Of a stretch of DNA of 37,410 nt, positions 7,371 through 22,381 are shown piece after piece (within the stretch, counting starts at the first letter, position 1; each line of letters opens with the position of its first letter). Under the pieces are notes generated by a model. It worked only from the letters and a program-made list of their open reading frames with translations. It was not told where the DNA came from and did no database searches. The stretch comes from Eubacterium sp. (lineage in GTDB: Bacteria > Bacillota > Clostridia > Lachnospirales > Lachnospiraceae), in the NCBI GenBank assembly GCA_017477505.1, contig JAFUVQ010000068.1, positions 1 through 37,410 on the forward strand, in the 5' to 3' direction. The position numbers and the translations under genes were made by a program.

Positions 7371-9254
<1,884 letters not shown>

Positions 9255-9261
9255 CTACAAT

Positions 9262-9927
9262 TTAGTTTGCCACTTTTACCATGCTGTGGCGAAGCACCTG
9301 GTCTTTATACATATAACCCTTCTGCATCTCTTCGATGACTTCATTCTCGCCATACTGCTCATCCTCAACGTGGATAACAGCATTGTGGAACTCAGGGTCA
9401 AACTGCTTTCCTACCGCATCCATAGGCTTAACACCTATAGCTGACAATGTATCCATAAGCTGCTTGTATATCATCTCAACACCTTCTGAGAAAGCATTCT
9501 TCTCTTCCTCCGGAATAGCATTGAGCGCTCTTTCGAAATTATCTACAACAGGCAGAAGCTTCTCAAGAGTATCCTTGGCTCCCATTCCGAACATCTTGGA
9601 ATTCTCTTTTTCATTTCTTGCCCTTGCATTATCGAAATCAGCAAGAAGTCTCTTATACTTCTCTTTATTTGCCTCAGCAAGTTCCTTTGCAGCATCAAGT
9701 TCCTTCTGAATTGCCTTGGAACCGCGTCTGTCCTTCTTTGGTACAGGAACCGGCCTTTCCTTCTCTGCTTCTTCCGTGAGAACTTCCTTCTCTTCAGAAA
9801 CAAATGCAACAGTTCCTTCCGCTATCTCTCCGGATTTAGCTTTAACATCCTGCTCATTTGCAGGTGTGGTGTTTTCCTTCTCTTCCTTGAGCTCCTTAAG
9901 CATTCTGTCCATGCCTCTTGCAGCCAT
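9262..9927 (-). CDS. grpE: Nucleotide exchange factor GrpE
   Basis: GrpE releases ADP from DnaK. The 221-residue protein has a charged, poorly conserved N-terminal third (Glu/Lys-rich to about residue 70). A long coiled-coil helix follows (KEKYKRLLADFDNARAR), then the C-terminal beta domain with GVKPMDAVGKQFDPEFHNAV and a final YMYKDQVLRHSMVKV, matching the family signature. Start ATG at 9927 follows GAGGTGA. Its first base overlaps the stop of hrcA (TAATG), so the two are translationally coupled. Confidence 0.96.
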   Translation of the reverse strand: MAARGMDRMLKELKEEKENTTPANEQDVKAKSGEIAEGTVAFVSEEKEVLTEEAEKERPVPVPKKDRRGSKAIQKELDAAKELAEANKEKYKRLLADFDNARARNEKENSKMFGMGAKDTLEKLLPVVDNFERALNAIPEEEKNAFSEGVEMIYKQLMDTLSAIGVKPMDAVGKQFDPEFHNAVIHVEDEQYGENEVIEEMQKGYMYKDQVLRHSMVKVAN

Positions 9928-10982
9928 TAATCTTCACCTCGCTTTTCATTTTTTCTAAATATTTGGTCCAATTCATCTGTAAGATTTTTAAGAGTGGAAA
10001 CAACCTTCTTATAATCCATACGTTTTGGTCCTATAATACCTATGGTGCCCTTAGCACCTTCAGGCAGCTCATAGGTAGAGGTTATGATTGAATAATTCTT
10101 CATATCCTGAACAGGTGACTCATCTCCGATGTAAATCTTGATTCCATTTTTCTCATCAGAACTGAGTGCTTCATCTGCCAGCTGATTAAGTCCCTCTTTA
10201 TCCTCAAAAGTTTCAAGGAGCGCCTGTGCTCTCGACACATCATTGAGCTCATTATATCTTAGGATATTCGAAGCTCCGCTGGTGTATATCTGCATCTCCT
10301 CCGCTTCTTTGACCGCATATACGATACCTTCAAATATCGATTCAAGGATATCGGCATATTCACCGGCCTGCTGCTTCATGGTCTGCATCATTTCGAGATT
10401 AATCTCTTCAACAGATACACCTTGTAAAAATGTATTGAGCAAAATATTAAATTTTAACACTTCCTCATTGCCCAGTGGTCTTGAAACATGTATGAGCTGG
10501 TTTCTGGCTACGTTATTACCTACAACTATGACTGCAACAAGCTCCTCTTCATCAACCTGTGAAAGCTGAATGAATTTCACCTGCTTGTTCAAGAGCCTCG
10601 GTGTCGTAACCATACTGGCATAGTTCGTATTGTATGCCAGAACCTTTGCAACCTGCTTCAGCAGAGACTCAAGTTTATCCACACGCTCCAGGAGCGCCCC
10701 CTGCTGTTTTTCCGTCTCAGACTTCTCTTCCATCATGATATCCACGTAGAATCGATAGCCCTTGTCGGTAGGAATTCTTCCTGCCGATGTATGAGGCTGT
10801 ACCAGATAACCAAGTTCCTCAAGATCTGCCATAACATTCCTTATGGTAGCAGCACTGAGATTAAGATCAGTGTATTTGGAAATGGTACGTGAGCCTACAG
10901 GTTCTCCGGTTTCAAGATAATTAGCAATGATTGCTCTCAGAATCTTGACTTTGCGTTCGTCAAGCTCTTCATAAACTCCCAA
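9927..10982 (-). CDS. hrcA: Heat-inducible transcription repressor HrcA
   Basis: The repressor that binds CIRCE and shuts off the class I heat-shock operon. The 351-residue protein begins with a winged-helix domain (LDERKVKILRAIIANYLETGEPVGS, then the recognition helix in LSAATIRNVMADLE). The GAF-like inserted domain and dimerisation region follow (IGIIGPKRMDYKKV near the end). The start is a TTG at 10982 preceded by AAGGCGG; no in-frame ATG gives the conserved N-terminus. The gene is first in the operon, directly downstream of the CIRCE element it recognises, so it regulates itself. Confidence 0.96.
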   Translation of the reverse strand: MGVYEELDERKVKILRAIIANYLETGEPVGSRTISKYTDLNLSAATIRNVMADLEELGYLVQPHTSAGRIPTDKGYRFYVDIMMEEKSETEKQQGALLERVDKLESLLKQVAKVLAYNTNYASMVTTPRLLNKQVKFIQLSQVDEEELVAVIVVGNNVARNQLIHVSRPLGNEEVLKFNILLNTFLQGVSVEEINLEMMQTMKQQAGEYADILESIFEGIVYAVKEAEEMQIYTSGASNILRYNELNDVSRAQALLETFEDKEGLNQLADEALSSDEKNGIKIYIGDESPVQDMKNYSIITSTYELPEGAKGTIGIIGPKRMDYKKVVSTLKNLTDELDQIFRKNEKRGED

Positions 10983-11007
10983 TCAATCACCGCCTTCTTG
11001 TTATCTG

Positions 11008-11034
11008 TTAGCACTCATCTAGTCTGAGTGCTAA
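11008..11034 (-). promoter_or_regulatory. CIRCE operator (HrcA binding site)
   Basis: A perfect consensus CIRCE inverted repeat: TTAGCACTC, 9-base spacer, GAGTGCTAA. It lies between the promoter and the start of hrcA, so bound HrcA would block the transcript. Confidence 0.98.
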
Positions 11035-11045
11035 ACACTAGACTA

Positions 11046-11074
11046 AATCTAACACTTGAGCAGTCTCATGTCAA
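11046..11074 (-). promoter_or_regulatory. Sigma-A promoter of the hrcA-grpE-dnaK-dnaJ operon
   Basis: On the minus strand, a consensus -35 TTGACA (11069-11074) is separated by 17 bases from a -10 TAGATT (11046-11051). The CIRCE element follows about 11 bases downstream, the classical arrangement. Confidence 0.9.
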
Positions 11075-11086
11075 GGAATTTTTCGC

Positions 11087-12283
11087 TTATTTTAAAAGAA
11101 AATCAGCCAGAATAACATTGCTGACATCTATACCTTTATCTGTCAGCCTGACAGTATCTCCGAAGCTTTCCATATAGCCCTGATCGGTATAATAATTAAT
11201 TACTTCGCCATATACTTCGTACATATCCTTACCGAAACGATTACGGAAATCCTTACGGCTTACGCCTTTGGTCATTCTGAGTCCCAGGAACATAAATTCC
11301 TCCATACGGCTGTCTATGTACATGGTCGTAACCGAATCACGTATCTCTCTTGATACCTTCTCATAGATGGAAACCTTATCATTTATCTGGGCAAGATCCA
11401 TCTGTGCGGATTCTATATATTCTATATATCTCATCAGATTCCTGATATTTGTATATCTTTCGCCCTTAAAGAATGACGCCGCTCCTATTCCGAAGCCTAT
11501 ATATTCCTTGCCGCTCCAGTAAACGATATTATGACGGCATTCATATCCCGGCTTTGCGTAATTAGAGAATTCATATCTCTCATAACCGCCTGCCGAAAGT
11601 ACCTTCTTCGTCATGGCATACATTCTTCTGTCAGTTTCCTCGTCCGGGATTCTGGCCAGAAGCTCCTTATTGGCCGCAAGAGGTGTACCCTCCTCGACCT
11701 GAAGAGAATAAGCCGATATGTGCTCCGGGGCGAGATCCATGACTCTGGTCAGTGTATCAACATAGGTATGTATATCCTGTCCCGGGATTCCGGACATAAG
11801 GTCGATATTAATATTCTTAAAGCCTGCTCTCCTCGCCATGGCATATCCATCTATAAATTCATCATAATCATGGATACGTCCCAATACGGAAAGCAGCGCA
11901 GGATCGGCACTCTGGAGCCCGAGTGAAATACGGTTAATGCCATATGAAAGGTATGACAAAAGATTCGTATATTTAAGTGTTCCCGGATTAGCCTCAATGG
12001 AGATCTCGGCAAACTCATCAATCTTAAATACATTTCTTATACCTGTCATAATACGCTCGATAAGCGCCTCATCGAGAATACTCGGAGTTCCTCCTCCTAT
12101 GTAGATCGTACGCACCAGATATCTGTCACTAAAAGGCGCGTATAGACGCATCTCCTGACAGAGTGCGTCTACGTATCTGATTTTTTCTGCAAATGTAGCG
12201 TCTGAAAATGACAGGAAGTCACAGTAAACGCATTTCTGCATGCAGAAAGGAATATGTATATACAAACTAAGATCTTTTCTCAT
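11087..12283 (-). CDS. hemW: HemW, radical SAM haem chaperone (HemN-like)
   Basis: A radical SAM protein related to oxygen-independent coproporphyrinogen oxidase. Members beside lepA/hrcA are HemW, a haem-binding chaperone rather than the oxidase. The iron-sulfur CxxxCxxC motif is in HIPFCMQKCVYCDF (cysteines at 14, 18 and 21). YIGGGTPSIL and SIEANPGTL follow, and the C-terminal HemN domain ends the protein. The open frame begins at a TTG at 12295, but ATG 12283 has GAGGG five bases upstream and gives MRKDLSLYIHIPF, so I prefer it (398 residues). It follows lepA by about 50 bases. Confidence 0.92.
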   Translation of the reverse strand: MRKDLSLYIHIPFCMQKCVYCDFLSFSDATFAEKIRYVDALCQEMRLYAPFSDRYLVRTIYIGGGTPSILDEALIERIMTGIRNVFKIDEFAEISIEANPGTLKYTNLLSYLSYGINRISLGLQSADPALLSVLGRIHDYDEFIDGYAMARRAGFKNINIDLMSGIPGQDIHTYVDTLTRVMDLAPEHISAYSLQVEEGTPLAANKELLARIPDEETDRRMYAMTKKVLSAGGYERYEFSNYAKPGYECRHNIVYWSGKEYIGFGIGAASFFKGERYTNIRNLMRYIEYIESAQMDLAQINDKVSIYEKVSREIRDSVTTMYIDSRMEEFMFLGLRMTKGVSRKDFRNRFGKDMYEVYGEVINYYTDQGYMESFGDTVRLTDKGIDVSNVILADFLLK

Positions 12284-12334
12284 TGTAACCCTCAAACCGG
12301 GCAGCCATAAGAATCACGCCACCCTTATATCCAA

Positions 12335-14146
12335 CTATTCCTCATCCAGCTTCAGAACGCTCATAAAGGCCTTCTGCGGAATCTCGACATTTCCTATCTG
12401 ACGCATACGTTTCTTGCCTTCCTTCTGTTTCTCAAGAAGTTTCCTCTTACGGGTGATATCACCGCCGTAACACTTCGCAAGCACGTCCTTACGCATGGCT
12501 TTTACAGTCTCCCTGGCGATGACCTTGCCGCCGACTGCAGCCTGTATAGGAATCTCAAACAGATGTCTCGGTATTTCATCTTTAAGCTTTTCACACATTT
12601 TTCTGCCTCTTTCATAAGCAGAATCTGAAAATACGATGAATGAAAGTGCATCCACTTCTTCCCTGTTTATAAGAATATCGAGCTTAACAAGCTTGGAACG
12701 TTCATAACCCTTTAATTCATAATCAAATGAAGCGTAGCCCTTCGACCTTGACTTCAGCGCATCAAAGAAATCATATATGATTTCATTAAGAGGCAGATCG
12801 TATTTAAGGAGCACTCTTGTCTGCTCAATATATTCCATACTCTTATAAACGCCGCGTCTCTCCTGACAAAGCTTCATGATTGCACCTGTAAACTCAGACG
12901 TAACCATGATTTCTGCCGCAACTATAGGTTCTTCCATATAGTCAATTTCCGAAGGGTCCGGAAGGTTTGTTGGATTGGTGAGTTCTATCATCTCTCCATT
13001 TGTCTTATAAACCCTGTAAACAACACCGGGAGCTGTAGTAACAAGGTCGAGATTGTATTCTCTCTCAAGCCTTTCCTGTATTACTTCCAGGTGAAGAAGT
13101 CCGAGGAAACCGCATCTGAAACCAAAGCCCAGGGCAATCGAGGTCTCAGGTTCATAGAAGAGCGACGCGTCATTTAACTGAAGCTTTTCAAGAGCTTCCC
13201 TGAGTTCCGGATACTTCGCACCATCCGCAGGATACATACCGCAGAATACCATAGGTCTGGCCTTCTTATATCCCGGAAGTGCCTCCGTACACGGATTCTC
13301 AGCATCTGTAACCGTATCACCAACCTCCGTATCACGAACATTCTTAAGACTGGCCGTGATATATCCTACCATTCCGGCCGAGATTTCCTCAGTAGGGATG
13401 AACTGCCCGGCACCGAAGATTCCGACCTCAACAACGTCAGCCTCAGCACCGGTCTGCATCATTCTTATCCTGCTTCCTTTATGTATGAAACCGTCAAAAA
13501 CTCTGCAGAATATAATAACACCCTTATATGAGTCATATAAGCTGTCAAATATGAGTGCCTTAAAAGGTGCATCGTTATCACCTGAAGGAGCAGGCAGTCC
13601 GCTCACTATCTTCTCAAGAACTTCCTCAATATTAATTCCATTCTTTGCGGAAATGAGAGGCGCATCCTCGGCTACTATTCCTATAACATCCTCAATCTCA
13701 GCCTTAACCCTGTCGGGTTCAGCCGAAGGAAGATCTATCTTGTTAATGACAGGAATCACCTCAAGGTTATGATCAACAGCAAGATAAACATTTGCAAGAG
13801 TCTGAGCCTCTATACCCTGAGCCGCATCAACAACAAGTATCGCGCCCTCGCATGCAGCAAGACTTCTTGAAACCTCATAATTAAAGTCTACATGTCCGGG
13901 AGTATCAATAAGATTGAATATATATTCCTCGCCGTCATTTGCTTTATAAATGATACGAACAGCCTGAGACTTTATGGTAATACCCCTCTCACGCTCTATA
14001 TCCATATTATCGAGAACCTGAGCCTGCATCTCCCTCTCTGTAAGAGTTCCGGTTTTCTCGATAATCCTGTCGGCAAGGGTCGACTTGCCATGGTCTATAT
14101 GTGCTATTATGCAGAAATTTCTGATTTTTTTCTGATCTAAATGCAT
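12335..14146 (-). CDS. lepA: Elongation factor 4 (LepA) GTPase
   Basis: A ribosome-associated translational GTPase with a role in ribosome biogenesis and back-translocation. The 603-residue length is exact for the family. G1 is [10 protein letters not shown]3 is DTPGHVDF, G4 is NKIDLP. The domain order is GTPase, domain II, EF-G-like domains III and V, and the LepA-specific C-terminal domain ending [19 protein letters not shown]. Start ATG at 14146 follows GAGG. It starts 12 bases after dtd, so the two are co-transcribed, with hemW downstream. Confidence 0.98.
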
Positions 14147-14158
14147 CCTGATTCCTCG

Positions 14159-14605
14159 CTATAATTTGTCACTATCCAATATTATAGTAAATGGACCGTC
14201 ATTCGTAAGCCTGACATCCATGTGAGCACCGAAATTTCCGGTTTCTACTCTTTCCACTTCTGCCCTGCATTTATCTACTATATAGTCATAGAGTTTCTCC
14301 GCATGCTCCGGTCCGCCTGCTTCTATAAATGAAGGTCTGTTGCCCTTCTTACAGTTCGCATACAGAGTAAACTGTGATATCAGAAGGAGTTCTCCTCCTA
14401 CGTCCTTAAGAGAAAGATTGGTTTTGCCTTCACTGTCAGAAAAGATTCTGAGCCCGAGCATCTTTTTTACAACCTTGTCAGCAACCGCGGTATCATCCGC
14501 ATCGGAAACGCCGATAAGTACCATAAAGCCTTTTCCGATCTTCCCAATCACATTTCCGTCAACGGTTACATCCGCCTCGCTTACCCTCTGAATAATAAAT
14601 CTCAT
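14159..14605 (-). CDS. dtd: D-aminoacyl-tRNA deacylase
   Basis: Removes D-amino acids mischarged onto tRNA. The 148-residue protein has the family start [13 protein letters not shown], the catalytic [17 protein letters not shown] and the cross-subunit Gly-cisPro motif in [11 protein letters not shown]. Length and motifs are standard. Start ATG at 14605 has an AAAGGGG site. It lies only 19 bases downstream of the terminator-like stem of the tubulin-like gene, leaving almost no room for its own promoter in the gap. Confidence 0.95.
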
Positions 14606-14624
14606 AAGAAGCCCCTTTACAAAC

Positions 14625-14650
14625 AGTGAGCCACATCTCTGTGGCTCACT
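14625..14650 (-). terminator. Stem-loop between tubulin-like gene and dtd
   Basis: A perfect 11-base-pair stem (14625-14635 with 14640-14650) and 4-base loop. On the minus strand it is followed by GTTTGT, a poor U-tract, so termination may be partial. Confidence 0.7.
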
Positions 14651-14661
14651 ATAATCATTAT

Positions 14662-17163
14662 TTAAATCTGATAAGCATGATCACCATCGATATGGAGAAC
14701 TTTCTTGCCCGAGAGCTCACCATACGCCTGTGCCATATCTGAATATACCGCAAGCATGGATGCCGGCATATTGTAGATGATATCATCCTCGGTTATGGAC
14801 AGTTCACCCGGTGTTATAGCTATGGAATTCTCCTTCTCATTATATGGTTCAGCTATAAGAAGACTCTTTACAACATTACTGAAGTGAGGCATACCCTCCG
14901 GAAGTGAGATATATTTTCTGCTGCTGTGTTTCTCGGTTACATTATCCTTGATAACACACATTTTCTTTCTGCTGATCTTCTCACGTGATCCCTGAACAAA
15001 GGCATTTGCAGCCTTGGAAAGAACCATATCTCTCTTTTCACTGTCCTGAGATACGAAGAGTGCATTCATCTCCTGGAGTGTCGGAGATTCCTTGGCAAAT
15101 GACATATAGATAAACTTCTCGGCAGCATATACTCCAATGCCCGCAAAAAGATTCTTATATATCTTCTCCATATGCTCTCTGATCACAAGAGGACGTTCAT
15201 TCTCTATATTATTCTTATTCTCATTATACATGCGGATTAGAGATGCCTTGAAGTCTTTAATCCTCTCATCTGTCACGTAATCTATAGGAAGAAGCTCACT
15301 CTGCTTGGAATGCTTAAGCATAAAGCTGAGAACATGTTTACTGTCAAGAGCAAGTCCTTCAATGGATGATTTAAGGTCTGATGAGAACTGTGAATAAAGA
15401 TCATCCAAACGCTCAGCCACCTGTCTCAGCCATCTTATGGTATCTCCGAGAACATCTGTATTCTCAAGTCCCTCCATGAGTATATTTCTTTCGGAAGCAA
15501 GAGCCTCTTTGATACATGCGTCAAAGTAACCTCTCTCCATCTCCTTCTTTTTATTCGGAAATGTAAAGAACGGAAAACTCTTCGCTATCATATCCTTAAT
15601 GGATTCTATAGTTCTCTCGTACTCTGCACTCGGAGTATAGTCTCTTGACTTTTCCGCAAGAAGCTGAACCTCTTTGATAAGTCCCTTATCTTCTGTTATG
15701 CCTGCAAAACCTTTGGCACCGATAACATGCAGTGTTCCGATAGGACCATACTGCTCGGTACATTTGTCTACAAGCTCATCTATGCTCTTCCAGAGCTTTG
15801 TCTCGATATTCTTTGCAATACCGGATACATTTGGTTTCATATTCTCAAGGTCTCTGGTAAGACTGCTTCTGAGAGTATCACGTCCCTTTCTTATATCCTT
15901 GAATGTAGGAGGCGTTGTAAATACAGTATTTATAAGTCCGTTGACCTTAAGCCTTATCTCATCTCCCGGCTTACCCTCTATAAAAGTCTTAAGCTCTCCC
16001 AGTGCATCTTCGATATATCCCTGAACCATAGGCTCATCAAGAGGTGACTTTATAAAGTCTTCATAAACCTTTGTGAAAATCTCATATTCACTAAGGTTCT
16101 CTATCTCACGGATGGGAATCTTGTAATCAGTCTCGCTGATAACCTTGAATGCATTTTCATCATTTTTTCTGAAGAAAATGTCTCGAAGATTCTTGTGACC
16201 GCCGCCGAATTCCTCGCCGCCTATATACTTGCCTGATGTAAGCTTATACATAAAATAAGCTATATCTCTGTAAATGCTTGCATCGGGAACATATCCCGCA
16301 TCATCCTTTCTGCCGGAAACAAGCATACAGGATTCAAATATATCTTCCTTCATGGCAAGTCTGTGATTGCCGCTTTCAAATGTATATGACTCACCTCTGT
16401 GAGAGATTCCCATATAATAAGACACTTCAGCCAGAGTTGCCACAGCGTTGGCATTCAAAAGCTTTCTTGCAGGACCTGTGATGGTATTATCGGCAAAAAG
16501 CACATCCAGTGTGATAAGTATAGCTCCCATACGGAAGTTATTCATCTTCTGTGATCTTGCATAAGCTCTTATATTATATGCAATGTCAGAAAGCATTCCG
16601 CTTCCCGTTCCACCGCCTATACCGGAAACAAGGATAACGTCCAGTCTTCTGGATGCGGATTTCCTGTACATCTGATTCATCTTCTCAAAAAGAAGAATAC
16701 GAACATCTTCATATGCATTTGAGAACATGAGTCTTCCAACCTGTCTTGAGCTGCCTGCACCAACGGTACCGATAATATCGGGCTCAAGTGACGGGCTCAT
16801 CCATTTCGCAAGATTATCTACTACATTTGCCCTGTTGGAATCATCTGAAAGCATGTACTCAAGCCCCGGTCTGTACACGCTGATCACTTCCGTGGCATTA
16901 AAACCGAGACCTTCCTTACTGTCATTTATAGTCTGCTCCATATAAGGAATATCAGAATCCACCATTAGAAATTCAATATTATCTTCAGGTGAAATCTCAT
17001 CCAGGAGCATACCCTTCAGATTAAGGACTGCTTTACTTCCGGAACCGCCCAAACCGATGACAAGAAGATGACCGTTCAGTTTCTGATCATCATCACCTTT
17101 ATCAAATATACGTATATCTCTGAGCTTGTTAAACTCGCTCTTTTGAGTGTCAATGAGAATCAT
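14662..17163 (-). CDS. Tubulin/FtsZ-superfamily protein (tubulin-like, FtsZl type)
   Basis: An 833-residue protein with an N-terminal tubulin-like GTPase domain. The Rossmann-type strand and loop [12 protein letters not shown] is at about 35-46. A second glycine loop [11 protein letters not shown] is at about 133-143. The tubulin signature GGGTGSG is at 183-189 in [15 protein letters not shown]. The rest is helical and charged, with no membrane segment. It is not cell-division FtsZ: too long and with a different core. It fits the large bacterial tubulin-like families (Pfam Tubulin_2; FtsZl of Makarova and Koonin, proposed to act in membrane remodelling). Start ATG at 17163 follows GGGGGAAA. 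It is last in a unit with a tubby-like and a PurF-like gene, 18 bases after the former. The biological role is unknown. Confidence 0.8.
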
Positions 17164-17181
17164 TTTGATATTTCCCCCAGA

Positions 17182-17679
17182 TTAGTAACGATACTTATTT
17201 GATGCATATAATGCAAATGCAAATGCAATGCAAATAAGTGAATCAGGATCATTATCCACCTGGATAATGTATGTATCCGTAATATTAAGTGCCTGGCCAG
17301 GTATAAGGTAAGGCTGGTTACGAACACTCATGATCTTGAGGCGTCCCTTCCATATATTGTAATTCCAGGCAAATCCTTCACCCTCTATAAGCCAGTCATT
17401 GTAATCAATATCATATTCAGGTCTTCCGAAACGGTCATCTCTTTCAACTGTTCCGAATTCATCTCCTCTTGCACAGAACTCAAATTTATTTCTGAACATT
17501 CCGGCCTTCTCCTGAACATACGCAACCTCACTGATCGTGTCATGCAGGAAAATCTTTATTCTGTGACCTGCAGGAAGGAAATCATCTTTTGTGTAATACA
17601 TAGGCTTGCCATTTGTATTAAAAATCTGAAATGAATCCTTCTCTTCTACGTCGCTTGCTTTAATGAAAAATCTTTGCAT
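17182..17679 (-). CDS. Tubby-like / LURP-one-related (YxjI-like) protein
   Basis: A 165-residue protein resembling the LURP-one-related (LOR) beta barrel, a relative of the tubby C-terminal domain. It begins MQRFFIKASDVEEKDSFQIFN. Short alternating strands follow, and the C-terminus is a central hydrophobic helix (SLICIAFAFALYAS) that would run through the barrel, which is the family pattern. In tubby proteins this fold binds phosphoinositide lipids; the bacterial role is not established. The open frame reaches 17700, but ATG 17679 has AGGGGG seven bases upstream and is preferred. The gene lies between PurF-like and tubulin-like genes with gaps of 27 and 18 bases, so they are almost certainly co-transcribed. 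Confidence 0.7.
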   Translation of the reverse strand: MQRFFIKASDVEEKDSFQIFNTNGKPMYYTKDDFLPAGHRIKIFLHDTISEVAYVQEKAGMFRNKFEFCARGDEFGTVERDDRFGRPEYDIDYNDWLIEGEGFAWNYNIWKGRLKIMSVRNQPYLIPGQALNITDTYIIQVDNDPDSLICIAFAFALYASNKYRY

Positions 17680-17706
17680 ATTGTAACCCCCTAATTGCAA
17701 CTAATG

Positions 17707-19122
17707 TTACTCTCTGCCGTTCCAACAGTAGGTACAGAGTTTGTCCTTATCTATACCGACAGCCTCAATCATATCATCTATACGATTGAAACTGAGTGAC
17801 GTGAATCCCATACGTTCACGTATCTTATCAAGCATAAGATGATATCTGTCAGAATCAGGGTTTGCATAATCCTCGAGAATAACTCTCTCAACATTATCAC
17901 CCTCTTCTTCTCTGATAACCTGTCTGGCGATAAGCTCCATCTCCGAAGTAGATCTGGAGAAATTGATATATTTACATCCGAAAAGGAGCGGTGGACATGC
18001 AGGTCTGACATGAACCTCTTTGGCCCCACTCTCATACAGAAATTCAGCTGTTTCACGAAGCTGGGTTCCTCTTACTATAGAGTCATCTATCATAAGGAGA
18101 CTCTTTCCTTCTATTATTTCATGAATAGGAACAAGCTTCATCTTAGCTATGAGATTTCTCTTTTCCTGCATGGTTGGCATGAAACTTCTAGGCCATGTAG
18201 GAGTATATTTTATAAACGGTCTTGCAAACGGAATGCCCGATTCATTTGCATAACCTATAGCATGTGCAGTTCCCGAATCGGGCACCGGACATACATTATC
18301 TATCAAATAATCATTACCTGCATCACGTTTTGCCATAAGACGTCCGCAGTCATTTCTCATGCTCTCAACAGATTTGCCCTCATAAACAGATGATGGATAT
18401 CCGTAATAAACCCAGAGGAAAGTACAGATACGCATCTTCTCGCCCGGTTTGGAAAGTGTCACAGCTCCTTCAGGAGTTATAACAACTATTTCGCCGGGTC
18501 CTAAATCCTTGTATGGTTCATATCCCAGTTTAAGAGCTGCAAATGATTCGAATGTAGCACAGTAGCCCTCTTCCTTACGTCCGAGTATAACAGGAGTCCT
18601 GCCATATTTATCTCTTGCAACATAGATTCCCTTCGGTGTAAGAAGAAGTATGGACATGGACCCTTCTATAAGTTCCTGTGCATACTGAATACCCTCAACC
18701 AGATTATCCTTCTGGTTGATGATTGCTGCAACGAGCTCTGTCGCATTAATATCCCCGCCACTCATCTCAAGGAAATGAGTCTGTCTGTTCTGGAAGATCA
18801 TATCCACTATCGCGTCGGTATTATTAATCTTACCGACAGTAGTTATGGCATAGGTTCCATGATGAGAGCGCACGATAAGAGGCTGTGGCTCATAATCAGA
18901 TATACATCCTATACCCAGATGTCCTTCCATACTGGATAATTCTTTTTCAAATTTTGTTCTGAATGGAGAATTCTCAATATTGTGGATAGCCCTGTTAAAG
19001 CCGTCCTTACCATAGGCAACCATGCCGCCTCTTCTGGTACCAAGGTGAGAGTGATAGTCTACTCCAAAGAAAAGATCGAATACGCAATCTTCTTTAGACG
19101 CTGATGCAAAAAATCCGCCCAT
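17707..19122 (-). CDS. PurF-like amidophosphoribosyltransferase homologue lacking the glutaminase nucleophile
   Basis: A homologue of glutamine PRPP amidotransferase, the first enzyme of purine synthesis (471 residues). The phosphoribosyltransferase half is well kept: VCPVPDSGTAHAIGYA (about 278-293), PRPP-binding LLMIDDSIVRGT (342-353), and C-terminal CTYC (463-466) as in iron-sulfur PurFs. The glutaminase half is degenerate. The protein begins MGGFFAS, so the essential N-terminal Cys is Gly. The GHxRYST segment reads GHLGIGC and the HNGN oxyanion segment reads TVGKINN. The start ATG 19122 is supported by AAGGAA; the frame continues to 19239 but without the right N-terminus. It is first of a three-gene unit. 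It may use ammonia, or have a non-biosynthetic role. Confidence 0.85.
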   Translation of the reverse strand: MGGFFASASKEDCVFDLFFGVDYHSHLGTRRGGMVAYGKDGFNRAIHNIENSPFRTKFEKELSSMEGHLGIGCISDYEPQPLIVRSHHGTYAITTVGKINNTDAIVDMIFQNRQTHFLEMSGGDINATELVAAIINQKDNLVEGIQYAQELIEGSMSILLLTPKGIYVARDKYGRTPVILGRKEEGYCATFESFAALKLGYEPYKDLGPGEIVVITPEGAVTLSKPGEKMRICTFLWVYYGYPSSVYEGKSVESMRNDCGRLMAKRDAGNDYLIDNVCPVPDSGTAHAIGYANESGIPFARPFIKYTPTWPRSFMPTMQEKRNLIAKMKLVPIHEIIEGKSLLMIDDSIVRGTQLRETAEFLYESGAKEVHVRPACPPLLFGCKYINFSRSTSEMELIARQVIREEEGDNVERVILEDYANPDSDRYHLMLDKIRERMGFTSLSFNRIDDMIEAVGIDKDKLCTYCWNGRE

Positions 19123-19175
19123 AAAAGTAATTCCTTTTCTATAAAAATCTCCCCACGTTATAATTTCCCCAAAGT

Positions 19176-19230
19176 AAAAAGCACGCTGCCCCCCGGAGGG
19201 CTTCAATAATACGAAACTGCGTTTCCTATT
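19176..19230 (-). promoter_or_regulatory. Possible attenuator in the PurF-like leader
   Basis: The leader of about 120 bases can form two stems on the minus strand. AATAGGAAAC pairs with GTTTCGTATT (one mismatch, about 19205-19230). A GC-rich GCCC/GGGC stem (19188-19201) follows shortly before a run of five T. The second could act as a conditional terminator. Evidence is from base pairing by eye only. Confidence 0.35.
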
Positions 19231-19249
19231 ACTAAACAAACATATGATA

Positions 19250-19278
19250 AGTATATACTAATCAAGATAAGAAAACAA
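19250..19278 (-). promoter_or_regulatory. Promoter of the PurF-like/tubby-like/tubulin-like operon
   Basis: On the minus strand, -35 TTGTTT (19273-19278), 17-base spacer, -10 TATACT (19250-19255). It lies just after the terminator of the preceding gene and about 120 bases before the PurF-like start. Confidence 0.7.
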
Positions 19279-19280
19279 CC

Positions 19281-19323
19281 TTTTTTAAAAAAGGGAGGCT
19301 ATCCGAAGATACCCTCCCTTTTG
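19281..19323 (-). terminator. Intrinsic terminator after the large PKKEE-repeat gene
   Basis: On the minus strand, GGGAGG pairs with CCTCCC and is extended by an inner TATC/GATA stem capped with a TTCG tetraloop. A run of six T follows. A strong rho-independent terminator. Confidence 0.88.
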
Positions 19324-19339: not shown

Positions 19340-22300
19340 TTATAACCCAAGCTTTGGCTTTGCATTTTCTTTCTTTACATTTTTATCCACTTGAGTCTTC
19401 CTCTGCGGTGCTTTCTGTGGTTCTGTTTTAATATTCAGCTTTAAGTCAACATTCATATTTTTCAAAAAGTCTGAAAGTTGAGCTGATTTTTGCGGATTAA
19501 CCTCAGCCAAATCTTCAACAAAAATATTTGCAAGCTTTTCACATGACTGCAGCATCACCTTAAACCTTCTCTCACTGGCACCGAATGGTTCAGAAGGCTT
19601 TCCCTTGTTGTTCTGATGCTCACCAAATGAAAAATTATATTCTTTCTGCTTATTCAGATACTGTGGCTTACGTGAATAGAGGTACTTATTCATCTTATCC
19701 AGCGTTATGCTTTCTAATTTGACTATAGTCTTCTTATCAACTCCGGCCTCCTTCTGCACATTAAGATCTTTAAGATCTCTTGTAACTTCTTCAAAATACT
19801 TTGAAGTTCCAACCTGTCTCTTATCCCGAACAGCATATTCCATTTCGTGAATGATGTCTCTCATAGATCTGTCAGGAGCGCCGTACTTTTTCTCGGCTGC
19901 CTTAACATCTTTGGTAAGACTATCCCTGACTTTCTCCATAAGTTCTCTTCTCTTTTTGGAATTTTCTCTCTCATATCCTTTGTTGGCATTTTTCTCATCA
20001 TATTTTCTTGCTATATAATGATCCATATCCATGAGAACATCTCTTTTTCTGTTGATAATCTCCTGCCATGCCTTTTTATCTTCCTTGCCGCTAAGTTCAA
20101 GATTATCTTCAGATTTTTTAATCTTCTCAAGTTCCTTATAAATATTAGAATACTGCTCAGTACCACCCCAGACACCTTTTTCGCCACCTTTAAGAGACTT
20201 GATCATCTGTTGCATGGTCATTCGATTTAAATCATTATCCGGATCTTCGAAAACAAATTTACTGCTTCTATCAATGTCAGGGTTTTTACTCAGGAAACTG
20301 TCTTCTTCTCCTAAAATTATATTGTCCTGATTTTCCTCTTTATTCTTTGGTGCTTCCTCTTTCTTTGGTGCGCCCTCTTCCTTCTTAGGTCCTTCCTCTT
20401 CCTTCTTAGGTCCTTCCTCTTCCTTCTTTGGTCCTTCCTCTTCCTTCTTTGGTACCTCTTCTACCTTAGGTCCTTCCTCTTCTTTCTTTGGTACTTCCTC
20501 ATTCTTAGGAACCTCTTCTACCTTAGGTGCTTCTTCTTTCTTAGGAGCTTCTTTCTTCATGAAATCAGGTTCAGGTACATTTCCATTACCATTTACCAGG
20601 CTCTTCATATAAGCATCCATCTGAAGTCCGGCTTCTTTGAGATCAGACCTGTCCGGCCTCTGGATTTCTCCGGACTGCTTATACTTGATACTCAGATCAT
20701 TATTATATTTCAGATTATTCAGCTTCTTATTCCATTCAACTACATTAATCTTTCCTTGAGCCATTTGCTGAGTAGTTTCCAATATTTCTTTGCTGTACTC
20801 ATCAGCACTAAGCTGGAAAATCTCTTTACGTTTTATGACTTCTTTGCCATTTACTTCTGTAACAGTATAATCCGGATTATTCTTTCTACGCTGAATCTCT
20901 CTCTGTTTTCTTTCAGCAAAGAATAACTCTCTTTCATGAGCATTTCCGTTTTTCTTTACATTTTCATAAGCTTTAATATCATTCTCGATTGTATTCTTCA
21001 TTTTGCCGGCTATCTCAGGATCAGCCTCTCTTTCAAAGCTGTTATATCCGGCTTTTTTAGCCTGTTCCTCGATATATTTAGGATCTTTTCTTAATTCATC
21101 TTCCTTAACCAGGTCAGCAAATTTATCGTTGATCAGCTTAGTACTCTCACCGATCATTTTATCAATATCGGTTGTCTTTTTAATATTCTCTCTGATTTCC
21201 TCAGGAGACATTTTATGAGTAAACTCATTATCCCGAAGAGCCGTGTCTGTCTTCTCTTTTAGTTCTCTTAGTTGTACCAGTTTACTCTGTTCAGCCAGGT
21301 AACTCTCACGTCTTTCTCTGGCTTCCTCATTTTCATCCTTAACCTCAGGAGCCTCATCCATGGACTGTGGCTTGCCATAAATGTTAGCTCTGATCTTGAT
21401 ATCCATAGTATCGAAGACTATATCATCCTTAAGATCACCGGTCTTCTTGCCGGCCACACTCTTAAGAATAGCAGATGTTTTATCTATCTCATTTGCAACA
21501 TTTTCAATTGTCTTCTTCTCTTCATCAGTCAGATTTGGCTTATCGTAATCATAGTAATGATCGTTATATTTTACCTGGGCATAATCATAAAGAGCCTCAC
21601 CTATAACATCTCTGACTCTGTCAGCAAATGAATAGTCCTTTTCAGTACCATCAGAATGAAAACTGGTAACAAATGATTTATATGTCATATTCTTTGATAA
21701 ATACTCATGAATATGCTTTCCCATAGGATCATTTTCAATGAATTTCTGAACATTCTCATCAAGATTGTCAGAATATAATTCATTGATTATGTCTTTTTTC
21801 CACTCATCATTATCAGCATGTCTGTATTCTTCTCCCAATTTACTAAGATAAGCAATTTTCATAGCATCGAATACAAATTCATCTTTACGCTTGTTATACT
21901 CATCTTCGGAATCTTTGGCAGATTTCTTATAATCTCCGGTTATCTTAATGCATCCATAAACGTTCTTTGCCAGGTTCTGAACTTCTAAATCAGTAAAGCC
22001 GCTGACAGCCATAGGTCTATATGTATTAAGTTTAGCTTCATTAAAGTTTACTTCATCCTCTTTACATTTTTCAACAACACTGCCATACGCCTGAAATACC
22101 GCCTCATAAGCAGCATCCTGATTTTTGGCGTGTTTCGAAATATAAGAGTTCATAAGACGACGAAGTTTTATATCCGTACCAAATACAGCCTGAGCTTTAA
22201 TCGGTATTTCAACGTTGCTCTTAGAATTCTTAGCTACTTTTTTCTCCATGTCCAGAAGTGCTTCTTCTGCCTGCTGCATACCTTTGATTTCATTCTGAAT

Positions 22301-22381
22301 TTCTTCCAATTCCGGGTTACCGGCAGAATTGATCTTCAAAAGCTTATTTGCAATTTCTTTTGTATACTTTGACTTTGGCAT
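19340..22381 (-). CDS. Large charged coiled-coil protein with PKKEE repeats, unknown function
   Basis: A 1013-residue, very charged (Lys/Glu/Asp/Asn-rich) cytosolic protein without signal peptide or membrane segment. Residues 1-600 are helical with many heptad-like stretches. Residues about 609-682 are a low-complexity repeat of Pro-Lys-Lys-Glu-Glu units, mostly KKEEEGP. The C-terminal part (about 720-950) seems to hold two copies of a roughly 100-residue helical module. Each has a LxDMxxYI-like helix followed by a charged stretch and an ERR/KRR helix (copy A about 726-820, copy B about 838-950). A similar module occurs in the 964-residue protein at 24733-27627. I recognise no known family. 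The start has AGGAGG. The gene ends at its own strong terminator and is separated from the asparaginase gene by 98 bases. Confidence 0.75.
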   Translation of the reverse strand: MPKSKYTKEIANKLLKINSAGNPELEEIQNEIKGMQQAEEALLDMEKKVAKNSKSNVEIPIKAQAVFGTDIKLRRLMNSYISKHAKNQDAAYEAVFQAYGSVVEKCKEDEVNFNEAKLNTYRPMAVSGFTDLEVQNLAKNVYGCIKITGDYKKSAKDSEDEYNKRKDEFVFDAMKIAYLSKLGEEYRHADNDEWKKDIINELYSDNLDENVQKFIENDPMGKHIHEYLSKNMTYKSFVTSFHSDGTEKDYSFADRVRDVIGEALYDYAQVKYNDHYYDYDKPNLTDEEKKTIENVANEIDKTSAILKSVAGKKTGDLKDDIVFDTMDIKIRANIYGKPQSMDEAPEVKDENEEARERRESYLAEQSKLVQLRELKEKTDTALRDNEFTHKMSPEEIRENIKKTTDIDKMIGESTKLINDKFADLVKEDELRKDPKYIEEQAKKAGYNSFEREADPEIAGKMKNTIENDIKAYENVKKNGNAHERELFFAERKQREIQRRKNNPDYTVTEVNGKEVIKRKEIFQLSADEYSKEILETTQQMAQGKINVVEWNKKLNNLKYNNDLSIKYKQSGEIQRPDRSDLKEAGLQMDAYMKSLVNGNGNVPEPDFMKKEAPKKEEAPKVEEVPKNEEVPKKEEEGPKVEEVPKKEEEGPKKEEEGPKKEEEGPKKEEGAPKKEEAPKNKEENQDNIILGEEDSFLSKNPDIDRSSKFVFEDPDNDLNRMTMQQMIKSLKGGEKGVWGGTEQYSNIYKELEKIKKSEDNLELSGKEDKKAWQEIINRKRDVLMDMDHYIARKYDEKNANKGYERENSKKRRELMEKVRDSLTKDVKAAEKKYGAPDRSMRDIIHEMEYAVRDKRQVGTSKYFEEVTRDLKDLNVQKEAGVDKKTIVKLESITLDKMNKYLYSRKPQYLNKQKEYNFSFGEHQNNKGKPSEPFGASERRFKVMLQSCEKLANIFVEDLAEVNPQKSAQLSDFLKNMNVDLKLNIKTEPQKAPQRKTQVDKNVKKENAKPKLGL
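20380..20442 (-). repeat. 21-bp tandem repeat encoding KKEEEGP
   Basis: Three consecutive 21-base units (20380-20400, 20401-20421, 20422-20442) are identical or differ by a single base. Degenerate copies extend on both sides over about 20340-20557. The unit length is a multiple of three, so copy-number change keeps the reading frame. Confidence 0.85.

Follow-up and report, generated by a model that had tools for sequence, protein, structure and literature searches.

A PurF paralogue that may use ammonia, and its young three-gene operon in Eubacterium

Contig JAFUVQ010000068.1 of Eubacterium sp. (Lachnospiraceae; GCA_017477505.1, positions 1-37,410; the whole of this 37,410-nucleotide stretch is called the window below) carries three consecutive genes coding for a PurF paralogue, an LOR/tubby-like protein, and a Tubulin_2 (FtsZ-like) protein, referred to here as P, L, and T, respectively (Table 1). 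What brings a relative of a purine enzyme together with a putative lipid-binding protein and a tubulin-like protein, and do the three act as one system? A preliminary description of this DNA proposed a membrane-linked cytoskeletal system, with P as its nucleotide-linked regulator. Our analysis points elsewhere: P is probably an ammonia-dependent phosphoribosyl pyrophosphate (PRPP) aminotransferase able to replace PurF, located here in a young operon. In what follows, L-numbers denote loci and G-numbers genomes; L013 (Lachnospiraceae bacterium YSB2008) and L014 are two relatives with which the window was compared.

The PurF-like protein P and its predicted chemistry

P matches the purF model TIGR01134 with an E value of 5e-56 and 190.8 bits, under the curated cut-off of 350, and its N terminus reads MGGFFA where PurF has Cys-Gly, so that the glutaminase nucleophile is gone. 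Among 69 orthologues, the window's P included, this Cys is replaced by Gly or Ser (M[G/S]G), and DYHSHLGT[RK]R takes the place of the PurF motif LQHRGQE; the glutamine-site motifs RYST.G and HNGN of PurF are also lost. The PRPP-binding loop DDSIVRGT is intact in all 42 aligned P sequences, the VP.S loop is kept too, and four Cys align with positions of Bacillus subtilis PurF that we take to be its Fe-S ligands. At 163 columns that are invariant in 15 PurF sequences, the same 42 P rows keep 71, have switched 48 to another near-fixed state, and are variable in 44, and in a quick tree P forms a clade of its own apart from PurF. A defense role for P was considered and set aside, with PADLOC giving merely weak matches of the phosphoribosyltransferase part (PsyrT, 9e-4; ShosT, 0.022).

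From these sequence features, together with the distribution and gene neighborhoods described below, we infer a catalytic activity, a nitrogen donor, and a physiology for P. It would bind PRPP through its intact loop, and ammonia rather than glutamine would supply the nitrogen, with P adding NH3 at C1 to yield phosphoribosylamine for PurD; the glutaminase half would be retained as a structural part. In many Clostridia P would serve as an ammonia-using isozyme beside a true PurF, and in others PurF would have been lost, leaving P alone.

Distribution and gene neighbors of P and PurF

P is far more widespread than the trio. In a family sample of 200 Lachnospiraceae genomes (one per genus, with two for the window's genus), it is full length or nearly so in 134, plus one fragment, and most of these genera have no T; at an E value of 1e-80 or lower, class and phylum samples contain it in 89 of 291 and 17 of 299 genomes, respectively (window's genome included). 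When the family genomes are classified by the number and strength of matches among the matches listed, 116 have both P and PurF, 18 have P only, 62 have PurF only, 3 have neither (these being 61, 93, and 86% complete), and 1 has the P fragment. The corresponding numbers for the 143 genomes that are at least 95% complete are 90, 11, 41, 0, and 1.

The P-only genomes are the most informative. TIGR01134 searches found no PurF above the cut-off in any of the 18, and the same search recovered one in each of seven controls (the window's genome and six PurF-positive genomes). All 18 have purD above the cut-off (as do all 39 genomes searched for it), which led us to reject the idea that they simply lack the purine pathway, and of nine purD regions read, eight are organized purE-purM-purN-purD and the ninth, on a 3288-base contig, purM-purN-purD. 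The M[G/S]G start is present in 17 of the 18, and in the remaining genome the open reading frame (ORF) lacks its start. The presence of P in 18 family genomes that have purD and no detected PurF suggests, from genome content, that P stands in for PurF. In the wider sample, 19 of 74 P-positive class and phylum genomes have no PurF above the cut-off, compared to none of six P-negative controls. P-only rows are scattered on the P tree, where the 42 rows require 15 changes or more (quick tree), which suggests that PurF has been lost repeatedly.

Purine neighbors of P were surveyed in 97 genomes (110 P loci, with 1.5 to ∼8 kb of flank and eight pur-type references), and five have P within a purine cluster. 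At L190, P occupies the purF slot in purE-purC-P-purM-purN; the others are purB-P-purA (L167), purF-purB-P (L150), purF-P (L174), and, at L305 of a P-only genome, purE-P preceded by part of an IMP dehydrogenase gene. The pyrG gene of L154 is more than 6 kb from P and was not counted as a neighbor. P and a true PurF gene form tandem pairs, with either gene first, in G449:C7, G349:C7 (by coordinates), and G452:C55, the last of which is L174.

This adjacency, together with the strong conservation of a protein whose glutaminase is dead, would suit a pseudoenzyme with a regulatory function, binding PurF (or PRPP) and adjusting purine synthesis. We nonetheless regard such a role as unlikely, as P persists in the 18 family genomes that have purD and in which no PurF was found; dependence of P on PurF was set aside, since P-only genomes exist.

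The context of PurF itself differs between P-negative and P-positive family genomes. PurF is next to or one gene away from purB in all seven P-negative genomes read (G008, G014, G017, G062, G284, G438, and G141, of which G284 and G438 are one genus), whereas it is near gltB/gltD, asnB, glnA, or pyrG in five of seven P-positive genomes (G000, G370, G003, G004, and G035), the exceptions being G479, which has purB, and G394. For these nitrogen-gene neighbors (five of seven versus none of seven), a one-sided Fisher test calculated by hand over windows of unequal size gives 21/2002 = 0.0105. An ORF labeled glnA3 with no NCBIfam match was not used. Outside the family the PurF context is mixed, with asnB-pyrG-purF in G484, a classical pur operon in G519, weak purC matches only in G274 and G333 (25 to 28% identity, not used), no such neighbor in G293, and purF-purB-purA in the P-negative G518. 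The family pattern suggests that PurF may serve nitrogen-poor conditions and P ammonia-rich ones, which would fit the isozyme idea. In the window's genome the true purF is immediately 5' of gltB and gltD, encoding glutamate synthase (L338, G000:C13, 2502-10645).

Several observations weigh against P as an ammonia-dependent replacement for PurF. Most P-positive genomes retain PurF, most P genes have no purine neighbor among the genes searched (only the 5 of 97 genomes noted above have one), and outside the genus, where 20 loci were read, any one gene family recurs beside P at 3 of them at most. The complementarity of P and PurF is modest (one-sided Fisher P values of 0.020 at 95% completeness or more and 0.027, 0.039, and 0.044 at other thresholds, phylogeny being ignored), and the P tree behind the 15 changes has 23 weak branches among 54 inner ones. 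The count of 19 in the wider sample comes from the PurF search by itself, and some of the P-only genomes are drafts. Lastly, the PurF flexible loop KN.Y.GR.F is replaced in P by a near-invariant KYTPTWPRSF, so another acceptor is possible. This loop, like the new motif YHSHLGT[RK]R, is what a phosphoribosyltransferase acting on another amine or acceptor might display, with P-only genomes obtaining phosphoribosylamine in some other way; we find that quite improbable, given that P fills the purF slot at L190 and that, once genomes are at least 95% complete, absence of PurF is confined to those with P, on scattered branches.

An ammonia-dependent aminotransferase remains our preferred reading of P. 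According to standard teaching, the first committed step in making purines depends on glutamine; if the reading is true, the P family would let many gut and rumen bacteria start purines from ammonia and would account for seemingly missing purF genes in metabolic reconstructions.

The P-L-T operon and its history in the genus

The P-L-T operon is well supported in this small clade, as judged from the DNA. The ORFs and coordinates of the three-gene unit are as first described, with gaps of 27 bases between P and L (P stop at 17707, L start at 17679) and 18 bases between L and T (L stop at 17182, T start at 17163); the P frame is open up to a TTG at 19239, and the ATG at 19122 is taken as the true start. 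Comparison of the window with L013 suggests purifying selection on all three genes, with nonsynonymous/synonymous divergences (dN/dS) of 0.054/0.91 for P, 0.051/1.37 for L, and 0.151/1.61 for T, dS being near saturation.

The regulatory signals claimed earlier fare less evenly. The promoter-like site has counterparts 5' of P in L013 and L014 (TTGT[TGA]T-17-TATACT, read by eye) despite diverged flanks, but it falls below the threshold of the consensus scan, and shuffled sequence has no fewer sites of this kind (9 found versus a shuffle mean of 14.0). The perfect stem-loop after the last gene is present, although it has no T run and the scan does not call it a terminator; L013 and L014 have other strong hairpins at the matching position, and it may not be a classical terminator. 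It directly precedes dtd and could act on that gene rather than at the operon end. The hairpin with T6 at 19318-19287 is absent from the terminator scan listing. Rfam at gathering scores found nothing in the window, and thus no riboswitch 5' of P, and over 40 P loci it gave one 6S RNA and two tRNAs only, with no riboswitch.

Table 1. Features in and around the P-L-T operon, in window coordinates
Feature	Coordinates	Strand	Remarks
P, PurF paralogue, 471 amino acids (aa)	17707..19122	-	Dead glutaminase half, intact PRPP loop
L, LOR/tubby-like protein, 165 aa	17182..17679	-	
T, Tubulin_2 (FtsZ-like) protein, 833 aa	14662..17163	-	GGGTGSG motif
Promoter-like TTGTTT-17-TATACT	19250..19278	-	Kept in L013 and L014
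Probable terminator of upstream 1013-aa gene	19287..19318	-	Hairpin 19318-19293, one mismatch, then T6; read by eye
Stem-loop 3' of T	14623..14652	-	13 perfect pairs, -22.0 kcal/mol, no T run
dtd (D-aminoacyl-tRNA deacylase)	14159..14605	-	Same strand, 56 bases after T
lepA	12335..14146	-	After dtd

T matches Tubulin_2 (PF13809) at 2e-63 and 215 bits, the cut-off being 27, in keeping with its description as tubulin-like. The tubby-like assignment of L holds through its relatives, five of six of which are above the LOR (PF04525) cut-off and one below, but L itself has no Pfam match and does not reach that cut-off. Predicted structure models of T and L (predicted local distance difference test scores [pLDDT] of 33.3 and 34.1, each from a three-row alignment) are too poor for use; that of L has strands followed by a C-terminal helix, and the LOR/tubby fold is a beta barrel that encloses a C-terminal helix. 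Descent of T from a virus and a role in defense were considered and rejected, with no match to the patterns searched in a viral collection and with PADLOC matching neither T nor L nor the 1013-aa ORF.

Conservation of the three-gene neighborhood beyond close relatives, to which the preliminary description had tied its proposal, is largely lacking. The genus set contains 61 genomes, of which 58 have T, 54 have P at an E value of 1e-100 or lower (with fragments in two more), and 48 have L at 51% identity or more (52 if distant LOR matches are counted). The 58 T genes are arranged P-L-T in only 4 species, T-L in 5, and T-P in 12; the remaining 37, of which some are at contig ends, showed no pair. 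The discrete operon therefore stands in this species and, by gene order, in its three nearest relatives (the promoter having been compared in two), but it is not genus-wide. In P and T trees built by a quick method (47 and 61 rows), species with P-L-T and with T-L are sister groups, and those with T-P are a separate branch.

Elsewhere in the genus, dtd or lepA is in view of L at 12 of 20 loci read, making dtd-lepA a landmark near which L frequently sits, and P has rlmH in view at 17 of 24 loci and a flavorubredoxin-like gene at 16 of 24. Because L and P each have such habitual neighbors, T seems to be the mobile partner of the three. The P gene, too, would have moved about within the window's genus, in directions that we infer, and in one small clade would have come to lie at the dtd-lepA locus, forming a short operon together with the genes for a protein of LOR fold and a lone Tubulin_2 GTPase. 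Across a large branch of the genus (including L199, L203, L209, L215, and L226), T adjoins a gene for class II fructose-bisphosphate aldolase, either upstream or downstream. T is itself nearly genus-bound, being full length in 5 of the 200 family genomes (the window's, G160, G180, G129, and G040). At loci of three other genera (L016, L017, and L018), a T orthologue is located 17 to 26 bases after prfC, coding for release factor 3 (RF3); one of the three was checked by model.

In the T-P branch, 10 of 12 T-P spacers contain TTTAC[AT]-17-[CG]ATAAT (from a motif search without a shuffle control), and several have a strong hairpin 3' of T (by eye). A promoter-like site and hairpins between T and P suggest that P is probably transcribed alone in that branch.

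These patterns bear on the cytoskeletal proposal, in which T polymerizes, L anchors it to lipid, and P reports nucleotide levels. The trio does occur in four species with the promoter kept in the three compared, and T is found beside P in a separate clade of 12 species and beside L in 5; the rough chance of one extra T pairing with P or L is 0.007 to 0.015, assuming 2700 genes and 5 to 10 independent placements, and the recurrence is weak evidence of a functional link. Beyond that recurrence, such a system is not supported. The trio is limited to the 4 T-bearing species above, P has its own promoter-like site in 10 of the 12 T-P species, and T neighbors differ by lineage, as with fructose-bisphosphate aldolase and RF3. 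Nor does P look like a nucleotide-linked regulator of T, as it occurs across Clostridia, in most genera without T, and resembles a purine enzyme, so that a purine role suffices for it. We therefore consider the cytoskeletal system very doubtful, and a more elaborate version, in which T and a lipid-binding L form a GTP-sensing scaffold that places and gates an ammonia-dependent P, coupling purine synthesis to a filament, with selection repeatedly driving T to P or L, extremely unlikely. The trio is better described as a recent arrangement, particular to this lineage, of genes that are inherited separately, with no obligate three-protein machine indicated. This corrects the earlier view: the operon is real yet young, and P probably has a separate role.

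Upstream of the trio, 19340-22381 codes for a charged 1013-aa protein that contains Pro/Lys/Glu repeats and matches no Pfam family. Long ORFs are present at its place in L013 and L014, with no BLAST match to the 1013-aa protein at 1e-5.

Relation to known systems

In agreement with the preliminary description, no published system resembling P-L-T turned up in our literature searches, nor did a description of the P family in those of open-licence papers; a bacterial PurF-like family standing alone in many genomes appears to be new. The relatives of L place it with LOR/Tubby C-terminal-like proteins (PF04525), for which lipid binding is putative. T resembles the FtsZ-like proteins FtsZl1 and FtsZl2 in having a Tubulin_2 domain above the cut-off and a GGGTGSG motif; the Tubulin_2 group is called FtsZ-like in the relevant part of PMC9871819, after Makarova and Koonin (2010; PMC2875224). 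Most FtsZl1 operons, as presented in the sections of those two papers that deal with them, include a vWA gene, whereas at this locus none was found beside T, with no vWA match in P, L, T, the 1013-aa ORF, or dtd. A second Tubulin_2 gene in the same genome (1128 aa; L019, G000:C23:256000-275500, ∼7482-12828) has an adjoining vWA gene, the typical FtsZl1 arrangement.

P shares with PurF (TIGR01134; B. subtilis 1gph/1ao0) its two-domain layout, the PRPP and VP.S loops, and the four Fe-S-aligned Cys, but differs in lacking the catalytic Cys and the glutamine-site motifs, in its replaced flexible loop, and in forming its own clade. Ammonia as a nitrogen donor has precedents: excerpts of PMC3261824 state that Cys-to-Ala/Ser mutants of Escherichia coli PurF retain ammonia activity, and an NH3-dependent activity of PPAT is described in a portion of PMC12017579. 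A close parallel is the crenarchaeal PurF', a PurF paralogue without the N-terminal Cys proposed by Brown et al. (2011) to be an ammonia-dependent PRPP aminotransferase (PMC3261824, in the part concerned with PurF'). As far as that part of the paper goes, every crenarchaeon has both genes, in contrast to the family studied here, where PurF was not found in 18 of 134 P-positive genomes; by published description, rather than by sequence, P is nevertheless like PurF' in being a PurF paralogue that lacks the N-terminal Cys.

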